22,428 nucleotides of DNA, taken from positions 1-22,428 of the IMG/VR virus record IMGVR_UViG_3300037104_000355; one strand, 5' to 3'. The stretch is from a virus. Shown here one piece after another: positions 3,775 through 17,532 of this stretch. Positions within the stretch are counted from its first letter, which is position 1. Each line of letters begins with the position of its first letter. The position numbers and the translations under genes were made by a program. Under the pieces are notes generated by a model, which was not told the origin of the DNA, did no database searches, and was given only the letters and a program-made list of their open reading frames with translations.

Positions 3775-3804
3775 AAAAACGGAGGTGGCTGTCTGCCACC
3801 TCCG
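3775..3804 (-). terminator. Strong rho-independent terminator after NAMPT
   Basis: On the minus strand a perfect 10-bp stem (CGGAGGTGGC with GCCACCTCCG, loop AGACA) is followed by TTTTT. It lies 30 bases downstream of the NAMPT stop and ends the long ThyX-to-NAMPT unit. The dUTPase promoter follows directly. Confidence 0.92.
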
Positions 3805-3834
3805 TAGAGTCTACTGAGTCTATGCTGTCTAAAC

Positions 3835-5259
3835 TTAGGCTGTTGCTCGCGCCCGAATGTCTTCGAATCGAGGATGAACCAAGATCTCTCCGTTTTCGAA
3901 GATGACCTCCATCTCGTCCTTGGCGAAGTCGTAGTCTGCGTCCAGGGCTGTGACAGTCCTGAAGCCGTCGCCGTCCTTGACCAGCTTCATATTGCCCTTC
4001 TTCGAGGTCTTGAAGCTGAAGACAAGCTCGCCGTTCTCATTGATCTCGACCGGAGTCTTGTCGATGTATCGAATCTCTCCGTCAACATCAACTTCGCAGC
4101 ACTTGATTGCGAAATTGAAATCGTCTCGGTTGAAATCCTGGATCAACTTTCCACCCGATCCAAATCCGATGTTGTCCGCCGACCATCCTGCATTCTTCAA
4201 AGTTTCAAGGATGTGTGCAATGCTGGTACGCGAAACACCGTCACCCTGAATAACCCGAATATAGTCAGGGAGAACCTTGTAACCCTTAGCGTTCACAGTA
4301 TATCCGAAGATCGAACCGATCTTCTCGATGACTGCGAGGTCAGTGCGAGCCGGATCTCCCGAGTCAGGTCGAATCACAAGGCGACCCTTGCGAGTTTCGA
4401 TCTTATGCTTGAGGGTTCCCCACTTGTCGATGGCTTCCAGGATGTGGAACGAATCCGAAACGCAAGCGACGATTCCCTCAGGGTAGGTGTCGAGCATGTT
4501 TTCGAATGCCTTGACCTCGTCAACCTTACCCCAGCTGGTGATTGTGCTGTGTTCGCTGGCCGGAACCGAGAAACCAATCATCTCTTCGGTGTTGTATACG
4601 TCCTGAGCCAGGAAGATACCTGCGACGGTATCGGTACCCATGAACGAAAGCAGGTGAGCCGATCCACCAAGGGCTGCAGTTTCCTCCGACGAAACACCAC
4701 GGTATCCGAAGTCGTGACACTTGAACCAAATGTCTCCAGGAGTTCCGGTTTCTTCGAGATACTGAAGGATAGTCTTCCGAATCTCAGCCGAGTTGGTAGC
4801 CACTGTGCTGGTATACCAAACCTTCATGAGAAGAGTCTCGATGAAATTGGTAAGCCACCAGCACTTGTCGTCGGTGTTCTCGATAATCATGAGAACATTG
4901 TGATTTCCGACCTTAGTTCCTTCCTTCACCGCACGAATCCGAACAGGCAGCTTGCCTCCGTGATTCTCAACGATGTAGTCCCAATGCTCGCGCTTGAATA
5001 CATTGTATCCGAAGTGAGCATTCCAGAACTTCTCGGCCTTATCGACATCAGTCTTGGTGATGACGACTCCGGCAAGGTACTTCTTCAGGTAGTAGTAAAT
5101 ACCATACCACAGAATATAATCTGCGATCTTGCTGCCACGGGCGACCATATGCGAAGTAACTCGGCGAGTCTTCTTCGGATACTGTTCAGCGTGGCTAGCC
5201 TTATACGAGTCAGTTGCAACCGCAATGCTCATTCCAAACATCTTCCAAGTATTAAACAT
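3835..5259 (-). CDS. nadV: Nicotinamide phosphoribosyltransferase (NAMPT/NadV)
   Basis: The 474-residue enzyme joins nicotinamide and PRPP to make NMN, the salvage step to NAD+. Hallmarks are clear: DSYKASHAEQYP (17-28), DFGYRGVSSEET (183-194, with Arg187), GTDTVAG (208-214, Asp210), SVPASEHSTITSWGK (231-245, His237 matching the catalytic phospho-His), VIRPDSGDP (295-303) and FGSGGKLIQ (366-374). Length matches the family (about 490). The ATG at 5259 has GGGAG about 9 bases upstream and overlaps the end of the NMN adenylyltransferase fusion by 8 bases, suggesting coupled translation of consecutive steps. Base composition is unlike the neighbours: 33 of 60 bases are G+C at 4381-4440 against 23 of 60 at 8881-8940. 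That suggests recent acquisition or strong expression. Confidence 0.97.
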   Translation of the reverse strand: MFNTWKMFGMSIAVATDSYKASHAEQYPKKTRRVTSHMVARGSKIADYILWYGIYYYLKKYLAGVVITKTDVDKAEKFWNAHFGYNVFKREHWDYIVENHGGKLPVRIRAVKEGTKVGNHNVLMIIENTDDKCWWLTNFIETLLMKVWYTSTVATNSAEIRKTILQYLEETGTPGDIWFKCHDFGYRGVSSEETAALGGSAHLLSFMGTDTVAGIFLAQDVYNTEEMIGFSVPASEHSTITSWGKVDEVKAFENMLDTYPEGIVACVSDSFHILEAIDKWGTLKHKIETRKGRLVIRPDSGDPARTDLAVIEKIGSIFGYTVNAKGYKVLPDYIRVIQGDGVSRTSIAHILETLKNAGWSADNIGFGSGGKLIQDFNRDDFNFAIKCCEVDVDGEIRYIDKTPVEINENGELVFSFKTSKKGNMKLVKDGDGFRTVTALDADYDFAKDEMEVIFENGEILVHPRFEDIRARATA

Positions 5260-6463
5260 TTTCAGTGCTCCCTGTTTTTAGTTTACGTGCAGTCTCCGAG
5301 TCTCCGGATGCCTCTAGCTGTCTAATTTCCGACGAAGAAACTTGACAGTCAAAATCTTCATGAAATACGTGCTTAGTCTTGATTTTGCTTTTCGCGATTG
5401 GAATTTGCCGTCCAAATACATGAAAAGTAACATCGTTAAAAGCCAAATTGAAAATCCTAGAAGTGTATCTTTCAATTACATCAGCTATTGTGTTGCAGTG
5501 TCCAACCATATCAGAATCTTCAATCTGATTATAGATGAAAGTTTCTTCATTGTACGAAAAATCAAGTTTCTTATAGCAGTCCAATAGTCGATTGAAAGTG
5601 TCAACTCCCATCGCTAAGTCTACTGGCAACCCTGTTCTATTCTTAAGATACTGAAGATTATCGAAAAAGTAACCATTTTCGAAGATGGCTACCACAAAAC
5701 CTTCCTGGTTGATGTCTGCGATACGCTTGATGAACGAATCACTATCAAGCTGACCCTTCTCATAGGTGTTTTTCGAGATGGCTAAGATTACTAGATTTTC
5801 CTCGCCTATCACCTTTCTTGCAATTTTCACATGACCATGGTGAATGGGATTGAAGGATCCCTTATACAAAACGATACGGTTACAGTCCCTCGATACATCT
5901 TCGAGTCTGAAAGGTTTGAAGTTCTTGAAAAAGACTGCACCCTTAGAATCGAAAATCGAAGTTCCTTCACAAATATCAACGTATTTGGTCTTCTGTGTTT
6001 TCGTAATTATTCTCTCAATTTCATAACCAATCTCATGGATCGATTCTTTTCGACCATATAAGTGACCTAATTCACTTGCAAGAGTTAGATGGAAAAATTC
6101 ATCAACCCACTGCCCTTCGATCAGTGTCGAAATACCAACCCATCCATGAGGTACTCTAGTGTCGTTTCCTCCCGATCTAATCTGAAAGGAAGTCGCCACT
6201 ATCATATTGAAGTGCTTAATAATCTGATCTTTCACAGAATCAAGAATACCTTGAACAGCTTCTTTCGAAACCATTCGATGATTCCCAATAGCACTTCCGT
6301 AAATGTCTTTTGCGCTGCCATATGGGCATTCGCTATGATATACTACACGAGACGCACCTGGGCATTCGTACAATCCCTGAGCGAGAGGACAGCCTGCTCC
6401 GTTCTCGACAATGTAGATTTTACGATCTTGGTTTTCCAAATAGTCTCGTAGAGTATTAAGCAT
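5252..6463 (-). CDS. CinA-like domain fused to NMN adenylyltransferase
   Basis: This 403-residue product has two parts. Residues about 1-130 resemble the CinA C-terminal / NMN deamidase (PncC) fold: a strand then ENGAGCPLA where CinA has ESCTGGLLA, CPGASRV (34-40), a Tyr/Lys pair Y48...K52, and IVATSFQIRSGG (88-99) matching the TGIAGPGG loop. The usual Ser of ESCTGG is Asn21, so deaminase activity is doubtful. Residues about 195-385 are a nucleotidylyltransferase: GSFNPIHHGH (202-211, HxGH), GVDTF (286-290) and SSSEIR (376-381). With NAMPT encoded next, the likely reaction is NMN + ATP to NAD+ and PPi. The start has AGGAGC 7 bases upstream, inside the end of the Nudix gene. Substrate specificity is inferred from context. 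Confidence 0.85.
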   Translation of the reverse strand: MLNTLRDYLENQDRKIYIVENGAGCPLAQGLYECPGASRVVYHSECPYGSAKDIYGSAIGNHRMVSKEAVQGILDSVKDQIIKHFNMIVATSFQIRSGGNDTRVPHGWVGISTLIEGQWVDEFFHLTLASELGHLYGRKESIHEIGYEIERIITKTQKTKYVDICEGTSIFDSKGAVFFKNFKPFRLEDVSRDCNRIVLYKGSFNPIHHGHVKIARKVIGEENLVILAISKNTYEKGQLDSDSFIKRIADINQEGFVVAIFENGYFFDNLQYLKNRTGLPVDLAMGVDTFNRLLDCYKKLDFSYNEETFIYNQIEDSDMVGHCNTIADVIERYTSRIFNLAFNDVTFHVFGRQIPIAKSKIKTKHVFHEDFDCQVSSSEIRQLEASGDSETARKLKTGSTENV

Positions 6464-6465
6464 TT

Positions 6466-7002
6466 TTAAGCTCCTATGAATTTCTGCAAGGCTTTAATGA
6501 GAATCTTATGCGAAGGTTGAATGTAAGGGTCATCCTTTTCAACCAAGGCAAAACGATCCTTCAGACTAAACCACCGAGTCTCGGCAATCTCTGGATCCTT
6601 TGGCACCGAAACGACCTTAGTCGAATCGATATTCAAAAGGAAATAATGGGTTCTAATTGCATGAGGTGTTCCCTCATATCGACCGTCAGGAATCTTGAAA
6701 TTTCCAATGAATCTGAGATCGCTTTGCGATGCGGTCAAACCCGTCTCTTCATCCAATTCTCGGATGGCGTCTTCCTCGTCGCAAATCGAAGTGGGGTCCG
6801 TAAATCCGCCGATAATGACCCACTTACCAGTAGCCCTTTTCTTTCCAAGCAAAATCACGTCTCGGTACAAATCGACAATTGCAATATCAACTGTCGAAAA
6901 TGCAGTAGGCCATGGGAGATAAGCCTTCTCCTTGTCGTGGAGAATGATACCGAATCGATTGAAGATAGCTTGTAGGAAACGATGGATGCGAGGGTGGATC
7001 AT
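6466..7002 (-). CDS. Nudix hydrolase, probably ADP-ribose/NAD-related
   Basis: The 178-residue Nudix protein carries the box at 65-89 (GGFTDPTSICDEEDAIRELDEETGL). The RELxEExGL half is perfect (R81, E82, E85, E86), while the first Glu of the consensus is absent and the Gly-to-Arg spacing is one residue longer. The surroundings (KKRATGKWVIIGGF, then a later PEIAETRWFSL) resemble the Nudix domain of NadM-type NMNAT/Nudix proteins, in which it cleaves ADP-ribose. In vibriophage KVP40 the NMNAT and Nudix activities are in one protein; here they are adjacent genes with a 2-base gap. AAAGG lies about 9 bases before the ATG. Substrate is inferred: ADP-ribose or another NAD breakdown product is most likely. 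Confidence 0.88.
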   Translation of the reverse strand: MIHPRIHRFLQAIFNRFGIILHDKEKAYLPWPTAFSTVDIAIVDLYRDVILLGKKRATGKWVIIGGFTDPTSICDEEDAIRELDEETGLTASQSDLRFIGNFKIPDGRYEGTPHAIRTHYFLLNIDSTKVVSVPKDPEIAETRWFSLKDRFALVEKDDPYIQPSHKILIKALQKFIGA

Positions 7003-7033
7003 TATGTAGAACCTTTCTGTTACCGGAAAGATA

Positions 7034-7375
7034 CTACTTGATTCCGCCTACGTCAACTAGAACTTCTCCATCCATTCCGATAGTCTTCATTTGACTTTTC
7101 TTAATTGCTTCAGATCCGTCAACTTTAAGAACAAAAGTTTCCCATTCGTGTTGTTTTTCATCGACATGATGCAACTCAAATGGGGCTTCTCTATCTCCGC
7201 AAGCCAAATACACAACACCGGACTGAGCGTCGGCCACTAAACCATTTAGGTCTAGTATATTCAACCTAGCTTCAGAACCTTCTTGAACATAGAGTCCGAT
7301 CTTCATTTCGGTATGAAGAGGGACTCCACTAGAAATCAAATGTTCAAGTATGTTGTATAACTTAGCTATTATCAT
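7034..7375 (-). CDS. Unknown 113-residue protein
   Basis: I recognise no family. The sequence is mixed alpha/beta: an N-terminal helix (AKLYNILEHLI), then several short strands (KIGLYVQE, RLNILDLNG, GVVYLACGD) and a C-terminal GEVLVDVGGIK. There is no signal peptide or membrane helix. Its start overlaps the end of the von Willebrand A gene by 14 bases and has no clear Shine-Dalgarno sequence, so it is probably translated by coupling. It is placed between the vWA protein and the Nudix hydrolase and may act with one of them; that is speculation. Confidence 0.75.
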   Translation of the reverse strand: MIIAKLYNILEHLISSGVPLHTEMKIGLYVQEGSEARLNILDLNGLVADAQSGVVYLACGDREAPFELHHVDEKQHEWETFVLKVDGSEAIKKSQMKTIGMDGEVLVDVGGIK

Positions 7376-8014: not shown

Positions 8015-8320
8015 TTATTCCTTTGATGTTGGGGATGATCTCTTCATCGAGTCGCCAGTTGCTCTACGGTGGGACTTAATCAAAACACGAGAATCTACAG
8101 GATCAACCACCAAATTACCTGAGACAGTTAGAACCATCCAATGGACCCATTCAGTTCCATCGAATAATTCAAGACCTCGACCAACCTTGGCATACTTCTC
8201 TGGAATCAATGAGGTGGTGTGTGCCACTCCTTCAATTTCGGTTAGAGGTCGCACCAATCTACAAGATCGGAAATTACCCTTGATGACTCCAGTGTCGTTC
8301 TGTGCGGTATTGACGTTCAT
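8015..8320 (-). CDS. Unknown 101-residue protein
   Basis: I recognise no family. The sequence has a beta-rich core (GLELFDGTEWVHWMVLTVSGNLVVDP) and a basic, Ser/Arg/Lys-rich tail (KSHRRATGDSMKRSSPTSKE). Its ATG overlaps the ThyX stop codon (TAATG) and AAAGGA lies about 8 bases upstream. It ends 2 bases before the vWA gene, so the ThyX, 101-residue and vWA proteins are probably co-translated from one message. Confidence 0.75.
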   Translation of the reverse strand: MNVNTAQNDTGVIKGNFRSCRLVRPLTEIEGVAHTTSLIPEKYAKVGRGLELFDGTEWVHWMVLTVSGNLVVDPVDSRVLIKSHRRATGDSMKRSSPTSKE

Positions 8321-9885
8321 TAGAAAGTTCCTTTTGCTTTTTCAATCTTAGCTTGAATTCTCTCTTCAGCTTCTCTACGATCAGTATATCCACTCATATC
8401 AACTCTGATATACTTAGAAAAACGCTTGTAGTCGTGTTCTATTTCCTTGTACATCTCTTGAGCTAATCTACGATATGAATAGTGACCTGCAGGCCCGCTT
8501 CTCAATTCAATGAAATAAGCCAACTGCCTGAGATTGCAATTATATACTACATTGATATTTGTTCCTAGTATTAGGAAGTACGCAGCAGTGAATCTATCGT
8601 TTTCGTATAGCTTGCCGATGACATCTGCAATTCGATCACACAGTGCGACGTATTCAGCCTTCAATTCAGAGGCTTCTGCTTCTTCTAAGAAATTAGGAAT
8701 TGAATATCCATATGAGGGGCACCAGTCAGATGGGATCTGAACGCCAACTCTATGACGCTGAACGTCTCGATATGCACCAATATCAAGTACAAACCTAAAA
8801 GTGTTATCTCCGAAAGCGGTCCACTTAGGGAATTCGTCGTACTTTCCGCGAGAACTCATCACTGCTTCTATTGCAGTGTCTAGATCACTCTCTTCTAATG
8901 TTCTAGGATCGAAAATTCCGCAAGATGCTATGAAAGCCATGCAAATCTTAGCTTCCACCTCAACACCAACAGGTGAAGCATATTGCAACTGCCTATTATT
9001 GGTGTTAATTGCTTCTTGCTTAGCTTTCTTGAACAATTCAAGAGAAGGTTCTAGAGTCTTAGTGACTAAGAACGAGTTAGTTTCGACATGTCGCAGCAAA
9101 CCTGGGTTTATCTTAACGCATTCGATCTTGATTAGTTCAGCCAGATCTCTAATTTCCTTTTCAGGGCTTGCAAATAATTCAGACAACCATCTTTCAGTTT
9201 CTCTCGTTGGGAGAGTTACACCTAATGAAGTTTTGGTTGATGTTGGTAGCAAATATCTAGCTTCGTCAAAAGCCTTAGCCTTGCAAGTTCTAATCCAAGC
9301 AGCTTCAGACTTAAACTCATCCTTTGAGATCTTAGTCTGAAAGAATGTAGTTGCAGCCTCTAGAACTTTTCTATATAGAACCATAGCATCTGTTAATATC
9401 TGAAGTTCAATTTCAGTTACGAATTCAGATTCTGGAATGTAGAAATTATCAACTGAGAAATTCATATATCTCGTTGACTTTTCCTGGAATGCACCCAACG
9501 AAGAATTCTCTAGGATCTTAGTGGATCTAATTGATACTTGTTCAATAGCCAATCGATCAACAGCTGAATCCTTTAATGAAGCATGTGAATATTCAACAGC
9601 CCATTTTCTCATAAATTCTTCAGATCTTTTTAATAGTCTGTTATACGAATAACTAGAATATTCGTCTCCAATTAATTGGAGTAGCGAGTTATGATATTGT
9701 TCTTCAGTCATATCCTTAAATATATCTAAGAATCTATCACGCATAGTAAGATCAGATCTAGAATACCCGCCTAATAGAAAAGCCCATAGTGAAGTAGGCA
9801 TAGCATCAGTAGCAGCATAAACATTTGAATCAATGTTTGTGAAGAACTTAAGTAATACCTTAGTCTCTAATTCATTGTATTTCAT
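8320..9885 (-). CDS. thyX: Tandem flavin-dependent thymidylate synthase (ThyX)
   Basis: ThyX makes dTMP from dUMP using FAD, NADPH and methylene-tetrahydrofolate. This 521-residue protein is about twice the usual size (220-250) and appears to hold two ThyX repeats. Repeat 1 (about 95-265) has YSHASLKDSAVDRLAIEQVS and FQEKSTRYMNF but lacks the RHR motif, reading ILENSSLGAF at that place. Repeat 2 (about 355-490) has VQRHRVGVQIPSDW (RHR 377-379) and CNLRQLAYFIELRS followed by a HYSYRRLAQEM helix. Repeat 2 is probably catalytic and repeat 1 structural, or they form a composite site. The start has GAGGAT 7 bases upstream. It follows the HNH gene directly. It needs dUMP, which dUTPase can supply. 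Confidence 0.88.
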   Translation of the reverse strand: MKYNELETKVLLKFFTNIDSNVYAATDAMPTSLWAFLLGGYSRSDLTMRDRFLDIFKDMTEEQYHNSLLQLIGDEYSSYSYNRLLKRSEEFMRKWAVEYSHASLKDSAVDRLAIEQVSIRSTKILENSSLGAFQEKSTRYMNFSVDNFYIPESEFVTEIELQILTDAMVLYRKVLEAATTFFQTKISKDEFKSEAAWIRTCKAKAFDEARYLLPTSTKTSLGVTLPTRETERWLSELFASPEKEIRDLAELIKIECVKINPGLLRHVETNSFLVTKTLEPSLELFKKAKQEAINTNNRQLQYASPVGVEVEAKICMAFIASCGIFDPRTLEESDLDTAIEAVMSSRGKYDEFPKWTAFGDNTFRFVLDIGAYRDVQRHRVGVQIPSDWCPSYGYSIPNFLEEAEASELKAEYVALCDRIADVIGKLYENDRFTAAYFLILGTNINVVYNCNLRQLAYFIELRSGPAGHYSYRRLAQEMYKEIEHDYKRFSKYIRVDMSGYTDRREAEERIQAKIEKAKGTF

Positions 9886-12002: not shown

Positions 12003-12494
12003 TTAAATCTTCTTAATCCAGTTATCACCCAAAGCGGCAACCTTTTCTGGTAGTACTACTATTGTAGCATTAGGTATTGTTTCTTCAATTATCGATTTAA
12101 CAGTAGGCCAGTGACCTCCGGCCAGATCTGAACCTAATAGGTAAGGAACATAAATCTTCAACTTACGAGTGTTTATGAAATTTAGTTTAGTCAATGCCTT
12201 AGTCAATGCATCATAGCTAGTATGGACGCCAGACCCTGCATAACTCAATTGTCCAAATACATTTGCAACCCTTAAGGGTGGAAAGTCCTTAATAGGGATA
12301 AGCTGAATAGTACCTAATAGTTCGTTTTCCATACCTATCTTAGACTTGCATAGCTTATAGTATTCCTTGAATACACTAGGGTAGTTAGCCCTAATCTGTG
12401 CTGCTAATCCTCGACCCATAACGCCAAGGCAATTAACTTGATGCACAATTATACCTTCTGTAATATCGAGAAGATTTCCCTCAATGATCTCCAT
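12003..12494 (-). CDS. Macrodomain protein (Poa1p-like ADP-ribose phosphatase family)
   Basis: The protein (163 residues from the preferred start) is a single macrodomain. It begins EIIEGNLLDITEGIIVHQVN, with the conserved HQVNCLGVMGRGLAAQI loop that binds ADP-ribose, then FGQLSY (third loop) and VPYLLGSDLAGGHWPTV, the Gly-rich phosphate loop of the Poa1p/ALC1-like branch. Members remove phosphate from ADP-ribose-1''-phosphate or ADP-ribose from proteins or nucleic acids. With the Nudix and NAD genes it suggests handling of ADP-ribose products. An earlier ATG (12500) abuts the GGAG, so I chose the ATG at 12494, which has GGAG 7 bases upstream. An extended -10 box lies 50-60 bases before it. 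Confidence 0.9.
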   Translation of the reverse strand: MEIIEGNLLDITEGIIVHQVNCLGVMGRGLAAQIRANYPSVFKEYYKLCKSKIGMENELLGTIQLIPIKDFPPLRVANVFGQLSYAGSGVHTSYDALTKALTKLNFINTRKLKIYVPYLLGSDLAGGHWPTVKSIIEETIPNATIVVLPEKVAALGDNWIKKI

Positions 12495-12545
12495 TTTCAT
12501 TCTCCGATTAAAATTCTAAAACCGCCTTGACAGGCTCCTACATAG

Positions 12546-16800: not shown

Positions 16801-17532
16801 TTAGATGCGGTCTAGTGCTGCGATGCGAGTCTTAATCTTGTCCAGGGTGCCGTTCCTACGAAGAATCTTGTAGGTGAGCGTTTCTGTTGAAAATTCTCCA
16901 CTACTGTGCAATCCACTATACCTCATGCGCCATAGTTTCTCCTGAAGTTTCTCCAATTGGCTAATAGTTTCACACTTATCAACCAAATCCATAATTTCTG
17001 CAGCTTTTTCTCGAACTTCAGAAAGATCAACAACTATATTCTTCCTATCAGGCTTTACGATCCATTCACCCTTAATCAAACTATAATAAGCAGCTCCCTT
17101 AACTCTATCTTCATTTGAGTCTGCTGCATAACATTCAACTGGAATGGATTTAACCTTTATATCATATTTCAAAGTCCATAATAGCTTTTTATCGTATAAG
17201 TATTGAGAAACTAAGTCTGGATTATCAGCAACACTAGAATAATCAACAATTAAATGCATGTCTAAATCGCTAGTTGGTGTGTAATTGAAGTTACAATTAG
17301 ATCCAGTCAATTCAATATCTAGAACTTCTATCTTAGATCCTTTATATCTCAAATAGTCAGAAAACTTATCAGCTATTGCCAATAATTTTACCTTAATATT
17401 ATCTTTTAATAGATATTCTCCGTTAGCCTTATCCCAAATAATAGGATTCAATTCACTATGAAATTTAATAGATGATACGTCAATATCTTCAGGGTTAACA
17501 TCTTCCTCAAGTAATTCTAGATAATCAATCAT
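16801..17532 (-). CDS. Nucleotidyltransferase-fold protein
   Basis: The 243-residue protein carries a DNA polymerase beta-type nucleotidyltransferase signature: LTGSNCNFNYTPTSDLDMHLIV (G77-S78 ... D89-L-D91) in the usual helix-GS-strand arrangement. It starts with an acidic segment and KFHSELNPIIWD, a beginning I associate with a widespread but uncharacterised phage nucleotidyltransferase family. Members may transfer nucleotides to a protein or RNA, but no substrate is known to me. The C-terminal half is helical (LEKLQEKLWRMRYSGLH). There is no Shine-Dalgarno sequence; ATAAAT lies 6 bases before the ATG, a weak leaderless-type match. The gene follows the RuvC-like gene by 8 bases. Confidence 0.85.
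   Translation of the reverse strand: MIDYLELLEEDVNPEDIDVSSIKFHSELNPIIWDKANGEYLLKDNIKVKLLAIADKFSDYLRYKGSKIEVLDIELTGSNCNFNYTPTSDLDMHLIVDYSSVADNPDLVSQYLYDKKLLWTLKYDIKVKSIPVECYAADSNEDRVKGAAYYSLIKGEWIVKPDRKNIVVDLSEVREKAAEIMDLVDKCETISQLEKLQEKLWRMRYSGLHSSGEFSTETLTYKILRRNGTLDKIKTRIAALDRI

Follow-up and report, generated by a model that had tools for sequence, protein, structure and literature searches.

The closest described counterparts of the system reported here are phage NAD+ salvage pathways in which a NadV-type nicotinamide phosphoribosyltransferase (NAMPT) is combined with NadM-Nudix, i.e. a nicotinamide mononucleotide (NMN) adenylyltransferase (NMNAT) joined to a Nudix hydrolase (e.g. NadV/NatV of KVP40 and the NARP2-type pathways). 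In a survey covering 21,191 viral proteomes, NadM and NadR are named as the only phage NMNATs, CinA is not mentioned, and every phage with NadM also has NadV (PMC9503650). Here we describe a three-gene cassette from a 22.4-kb fragment of the IMG/VR virus record IMGVR_UViG_3300037104_000355 (22,428 bases, analysed over the whole length and called the window below), in which NAMPT and a Nudix hydrolase accompany a 403-amino-acid (aa) protein that fuses a CinA-like domain to a predicted NMNAT. On sequence and modelled fold, this CinA fusion adds a third type to the phage NMNATs NadM and NadR.

The cassette resembles the NadV and NadM-Nudix pathways in that NAMPT stands beside an NMN adenylyltransferase and a Nudix hydrolase of the ADP-ribose type, with the same predicted net reaction; it differs in that the NMNAT is of the CinA-fusion type, not NadM, and the Nudix has its own gene. 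As in NARP2-type pathways, there is a NadV-type NAMPT and a linked adenylyltransferase with the NMNAT fold and motifs. The Nudix of the NadM clade is shared with NatV, but a single polypeptide with NMNAT and Nudix is lacking, as is a NadM-type NMNAT in the records of the relatives. NadR, like the fusion, is a HIGH-superfamily adenylyltransferase paired with NadV in phages; it carries a P-loop nicotinamide-riboside kinase, whereas the Pfam scan of the fusion revealed none, and residues 1-156 have the CinA fold.

We assign a probability of roughly 0.78 to the following reading of the whole locus: it is a salvage operon with a CinA-type NMNAT whose CinA domain is catalytically dead, with a Nudix hydrolase acting on ADP-ribose, in which NadM has been replaced and whose role is the upkeep of NAD+.

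The predicted NAD+ salvage cassette

The cassette consists of three consecutive open reading frames (ORFs), arranged head to tail on the minus strand in the order Nudix, fusion, NAMPT:

6466-7002, minus strand: Nudix hydrolase, separate gene (178 aa, REL-DEETG box intact)
5252-6463, minus strand: CinA-like/NMN (or nicotinic acid mononucleotide, NaMN) adenylyltransferase fusion (403 aa), predicted from Pfam, NCBIfam, hhalign, AlphaFold2 and VIA-align
5996-6463, minus strand: CinA/PncC-fold domain of the fusion, residues 1-156 (VIA-align)
5267-5884, minus strand: NadD/NMNAT-fold adenylyltransferase domain of the fusion, residues 194-399, with the motifs GSFNPIHHGH and SSSEIR
5252-5259, minus strand: 8-base overlap of the fusion stop and the NAMPT start, bases common to both ORFs
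3835-5259, minus strand: NAMPT, NadV-type nicotinamide phosphoribosyltransferase (474 aa), predicted from Pfam, PHROG and NCBIfam

A first-pass annotation, made from the sequence, had described three consecutive genes with an 8-base overlap and a 2-base gap. This layout proved exact (the gap comprises bases 6464-6465, between the Nudix and fusion genes), and the placing of NAMPT, an NMNAT-type enzyme and a Nudix hydrolase in one operon was borne out by NF006629, PHROG 448, the folds and motifs, and Pfam. The overlap of the fusion and NAMPT genes is likely to couple their translation. The identical trio, in the same order, is found in two other phage contigs, L013 (306 kb) and L014 (80 kb), both with overlaps of the fusion/NAMPT type; therefore the ORFs of the window are not a chance set. 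Identity to the window proteins is 63-67% for Nudix, 49% (L013) and 56% (L014) for the fusion, and 86% (L013) and 84% (L014) for NAMPT.

By homology, the identity of the 474-aa protein as NAMPT is unambiguous: it scores 542.7 bits against NCBIfam NF006629 (cut-off 405) and matches PHROG 448 at 5.6e-148. Such enzymes are common in phages, with 1,909 phage records carrying one. We also noted that NAMPT is much more conserved (84-86%) than the adjoining fusion (49-56%), and that third-position G+C of the NAMPT gene (3835-5259; in L014, 6001-7425) is 0.62-0.63, versus about 0.2-0.5 in other genes of the window.

The Nudix protein (Pfam, 1.1e-11) has as its best NCBIfam model NF003787, matched in the Nudix half only (positions 195-323; 2.3e-7), and in BLAST it aligns solely to the C-terminal half of phage NadM-Nudix proteins (from residue ~155 onward, linker included). 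By sequence, it falls into one class with the Nudix portions of NatV-like NadM-Nudix proteins. Its AlphaFold2 model (predicted local distance difference test, pLDDT, 86.5) gives Z of about 16 to the NadM Nudix structures 2qjt and 2r5w, among many other Nudix folds; since hundreds of Nudix structures score alike, the fold search does not point to a substrate. The most likely substrate is ADP-ribose (or NAD(H)).

Domain structure and active sites of the fusion protein

Within the 403-aa protein, Pfam CTP_transf_like is matched above its cut-off. The Pfam CinA match (E 0.016) lies under its cut-off and was not relied on, so that this assignment needed independent proof from profile and fold. Structure prediction by AlphaFold2, from a 45-sequence alignment, produced a model with pLDDT of 89.2 and a predicted template modelling score (pTM) of 0.88. 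When compared by VIA-align, residues 1-156 match CinA/PncC structures at Z 14.5-15.9 (15.9 to 5kvk, 15.1 to 4ct8 and 14.8 to 2a9s; rmsd 2.4-2.8 over 139-144 residues), while residues 194-399 give Z of 14.1 to NadD (5vir and 4ymi) and 13.1 to NMN-bound human NMNAT (1nus). Model and hhalign profile comparison thus both return CinA plus NadD/NMNAT, and the CinA-like domain proposed in the first-pass annotation is upheld by a match to bacterial fusions at E 4.6e-18 and by Z values up to 15.9. Similar folds were found, in a search of viral structures, in an uncultured Caudovirales protein and a Terrestrivirus protein.

The C-terminal domain shares the fold and both signature motifs of NadD, the NaMN adenylyltransferase, from which the window protein differs by the fused CinA domain. 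NadD models are the best NCBIfam matches for this domain, and the fusion scores far under the NadD family cut-offs. The window protein retains HxGH and SSxxxR in intact form. Across 45 fusions both HxGH histidines, the GxD motif and R352 are identical in every sequence, and the SS..R positions are kept in nearly all.

In AtCinA, S31 and K63 form the catalytic dyad and R145, Y58 and S48 hold the phosphate; the substitutions S31A, K63A, Y58A and R145A each abolish activity (PMC5384747). Residue equivalences were set by HMM alignment to 2a9s, except that the counterpart of R145 was assigned from its location where the last helix begins (Rxx[VI]R, one of the conserved CinA blocks of PMC3855486); R138 opens helix 138-154 of the model. 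The window fusion keeps the phosphate site (G36, S38, Y48 and R138, equivalent to G46, S48, Y58 and R145) and has lost the Ser/Lys dyad, with N21 at the position of Ser31 and no lysine at that of Lys63. The same holds for the family: the equivalents of G46, Y58 and R145 are identical in 45 of 45 fusions and that of S48 in 44, while the lysine is absent from all. The Ser31 position is occupied by N, I, I and L in the four window-type phage proteins and by S, T or A elsewhere (with one N by alignment). In window numbering, G36, Y48, R138, H208, H211, D288 and R352 are invariant (45/45).

The N-terminal domain therefore resembles the NMN deamidase PncC/CinA in its fold and its G46, S48, Y58 and R145 phosphate site, but is distinguished from it by the loss of Ser31 and Lys63, by the loss of the amide-binding TGIAGPxGG block, and by fusion to an adenylyltransferase. 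Because the phosphate residues are kept but the dyad is lost, we regard it as probably a nucleotide-phosphate-binding pseudo-deamidase; judged by the missing dyad, it supplies no NMN-deamidase step. One could suppose instead that the domain is an active deamidase employing other residues, so that NMN would be converted to NaMN and then to nicotinic acid adenine dinucleotide (NaAD), with host NadE completing NAD+. Such a route would suit the retained PncC fold and phosphate site, an adenylyltransferase domain nearest to an enzyme acting on NaMN, and the Ser or Thr at the Ser31 position of some bacterial fusions. We consider it improbable, given that Lys63 is missing from all 45 fusions, that N, I, I and L replace Ser31 in the window-type phage members, that S31A and K63A each inactivate AtCinA (PMC5384747), and that the amide-binding block is gone.

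Viral relatives and linkage to NAMPT

Apart from L013 and L014, the trio also occurs in L029, reordered as fusion-Nudix-NAMPT and with 26% identity in the fusion. All four (the window, L013, L014 and L029) encode Nudix in an ORF of its own. Scanning viral sequences further, with the profile of the bacterial fusions, yielded 12 contigs, and NAMPT lies near the fusion, in both orders, in L225 (4-base overlap), L226, L228 (1-base gap), L231 and L232. The fusion is thus close to NAMPT, in several orders, in the window, L013, L014, L029, L225, L226, L228, L231 and L232. Leaving the window aside, both genes are present in 9 viral records and lie no more than 6 kb apart in 8 of them; the chance of at least 8 of 9 is 1.7e-7, as a rough uniform-placement estimate that ignores shared descent. 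This recurrent linkage in varied orders constitutes the best evidence that the fusion uses NMN, the product of NAMPT.

Proteins of the CTP_transf_like type act on varied substrates, and CoaD models score almost equally on the first motif. It could accordingly be argued that the nucleotidylyltransferase uses flavin mononucleotide, phosphopantetheine or a sugar phosphate, and that its proximity to NAMPT is incidental. Such a substrate seems very improbable to us: NadD and NMNAT rank highest when the whole domain structure is compared, the SSxxxR motif is retained, the linkage to NAMPT is repeated in differing orders, and NadD is absent from the SAR86 bacteria in which the fusion is present (see below).

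Contigs in which NAMPT shares 45-51% identity with the window protein (L004, L005 and L015-L023) mostly have NadM-Nudix beside or near NAMPT. The NadM NMNAT was found in none of the 15 viral records with a CinA fusion that were searched. In the 306-kb relative (G001) the single PF01467 domain is the fusion; NF003787 has no match in this genome and matches only by its Nudix half in G002 and G003. Given that NadM-Nudix accompanies NAMPT in the close relatives by NAMPT, the lone Nudix is most simply read as what remains of a NadM-Nudix gene after its NadM half was lost and replaced by the CinA-type enzyme. When the 403-aa protein was compared by tblastn with named phages and plasmids, only weak NadD-like matches were obtained.

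Several of these contigs hold other genes worth recording. L005 (LR756504, 636 kb) encodes, at 8761-9423, upstream of NadM-Nudix and NAMPT, a second Nudix-like protein (220 aa), which may be an NrtR-like regulator. An unannotated CinA-nucleotidylyltransferase fusion is present in the huge phage LR745208 (L222, 5932-7083) and a related adenylyltransferase stretch in the huge phage LR756511 (L223, around 6001-6375). In the 172-kb viral contig L228, a glutamyl-tRNA synthetase-like protein (8269-9738) lies near the pair of NAMPT and fusion genes. A single clade of all viral fusions was unsupported: the tree requires 2 changes, and one clade appeared in 3% of bootstraps, an uncertain result owing to long branches.

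The bacterial fusion family

Bacterial genomes were scanned with two bait sequences, a planctomycete consensus and one representing a putative plant protein (At3g27610), which served as probes only, with no conclusion resting on them. The scan produced 231 candidate stretches, and 80 bacterial loci were returned, from Planctomycetota, SAR86 and other Gammaproteobacteria, Chloroflexota, Rokubacteria and others. Nearly all combine a CinA-like with a NadD-like domain and end in a DISSTELR-type motif. The phage profile aligns with these bacterial fusions over the full length (hhalign, 99.0%, E 4.6e-18, 335 columns). The two groups have in common the colinear domains, the phosphate-site and adenylyltransferase motifs and the loss of the Ser/Lys dyad; the phage members differ in being very divergent (~20% identical) and in sharing an operon with NAMPT and Nudix.

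The bacterial family was matched by no NCBIfam equivalog or solved structure, and literature searches found no description of it. The fusion therefore belongs to an existing, uncharacterised cellular family and is not new to biology. The architecture had at first been taken as new, which holds with regard to NatV and NadM but not to the fused form itself. Likewise, CinA-like/nucleotidylyltransferase fusions had been suggested for some eukaryotic proteins; they do occur elsewhere, in bacteria, and the eukaryotic case is putative, as is the identity of the plant bait, for which the literature gave no function.

Among 61 genomes of the SAR86 order, NadD is encoded in 30 and the fusion in 26; none has both and 5 have neither (G030, G037, G042, G061 and G065). 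These five are probably incomplete, because close sisters hold NadD or the fusion. In the sampled genomes without NadD, where proteins were compared by size, the other PF01467 proteins are CoaD-sized or of ~260-325 aa and, a few exceptions aside, none is NadD-sized. A whole SAR86 lineage, and a large one, would thus seem to be left with the fusion as its one visible NMN/NaMN adenylyltransferase. Many independent swaps of NadD and the fusion were considered and rejected, as the RpoB tree needs one change.

Proposed function and origin

Taken together, the genes very probably enable the rebuilding of NAD+ from nicotinamide. In the proposed pathway NAMPT would, on strong homology, convert nicotinamide and phosphoribosyl pyrophosphate (PRPP) to NMN, which the C-terminal domain of the fusion, judged by fold, motifs and gene linkage, would join with ATP to give NAD+. 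For the CinA-like domain, the most likely role is that of a substrate-holding or regulatory module that binds a nucleotide, NMN or another, and aids dimerisation. From ADP-ribose (or NAD(H)), the Nudix hydrolase would most likely release AMP and ribose-5-phosphate by hydrolysis, a step that may remove the product of NADases and feed PRPP synthesis. As for origin, a CinA-type NMNAT of the cellular family probably took the place of NadM in a NadM-Nudix gene that lay beside NAMPT. The likely benefit is that NAD+ would be maintained in the course of infection, also in the face of NADase defences.

Several observations weigh against this interpretation. A fold of the NadD type is also compatible with NaMN or with different substrates, and the roles of the CinA domain in dimerisation and ligand binding are drawn by analogy from PncC; NMN specificity and a counter-defence role are both inferred. 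The C-terminal motif of the L029 fusion is degraded. The records L222 (485 kb), L223 (595 kb) and L230 (169 kb) contain the fusion, or a stretch related to it, but no NAMPT, and in L224 (532 kb) NAMPT is far from the fusion. Outside SAR86, the fusion and NadD stand together in 7 of 8 bacterial genomes, so that the fusion need not be the sole NMNAT there. Moreover, with a single switch on the RpoB tree, the mutual exclusion in SAR86 counts as one evolutionary event, not many.

A wider generalisation is conceivable, to which we would give slightly less than an even chance: the fusions may represent a distinct, hitherto uncharacterised class of NMN/NaMN adenylyltransferase that can replace NadD in SAR86 and NadM in phages, whose dead deamidase has become an NMN-binding module for regulation or substrate delivery, and which has been repeatedly recruited beside viral NAMPT to give NAD+ rebuilding a third form.

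Genomic setting

Two putative regulatory features flank the cassette:

3779-3805, minus strand: strong intrinsic-terminator-like hairpin, an 11-bp stem followed by TTTT, 30 bases past the NAMPT stop
7028-7056, minus strand: weak match to a promoter of the sigma-70 type (TTGACG-17-TATCTT), upstream of the Nudix gene

The promoter-like match is no better than chance, as the region has 6 such matches compared with 7.9 in shuffled sequences. The neighbouring genes serve replication and nucleotide metabolism (sliding-clamp loader, dUTPase, ThyX, ribonucleotide reductase and 5'-3' exonuclease), and we therefore infer that the window is the replication region of a large phage. A megablast search of the window against phages gave no matches, and PADLOC returned none on the cassette genes.

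This setting among replication and nucleotide genes would also suit an operon acting as a general metabolic booster, which raises NAD+ to sustain the replication of phage DNA and the metabolism of the host and has no role specific to defence; salvage of the KVP40 type was, moreover, described as a functional pathway before its link to defence (Lee et al. 2017, as cited in PMC9503650). However, the rebuilding of NAD+ is an established phage counter to NADase defence, according to Osterman et al. 2024, as cited in PMC13292451, and to PMC12774641, and the Nudix together with a macro-domain protein in the window suggests the handling of ADP-ribose. We regard a purely metabolic role as possible, at appreciably less than even odds, and favour NAD+ upkeep that extends to NADase defences.

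The macro-domain protein (12003-12500, minus strand) matches Pfam Macro at 3.5e-6, PADLOC DarG at 1.7e-15 and PHROG 335, a 'phosphatase'; it is possibly an ADP-ribose-processing partner in the same phage. The ThyX-like protein (8320-9885, minus strand) is unusually long (521 aa), with two Thy1 matches. A conserved phage protein of unassigned function (16801-17532, minus strand; PHROG 36119, 5.4e-42) shows a weak match to poly(A)-polymerase-like nucleotidyltransferases.

Significance

The joining of an adenylyltransferase to a dead CinA domain is a fusion type absent from the phage literature searched. Because phage NMNATs have been described as NadM and NadR only, annotation of counter-defence systems based on these two would miss the CinA-fusion form. 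The cassette also points to a function for a widespread, unnamed bacterial protein family: one enzyme assay could assign the function of all its members and probe whether a retired deamidase domain serves as a sensor of nucleotides.

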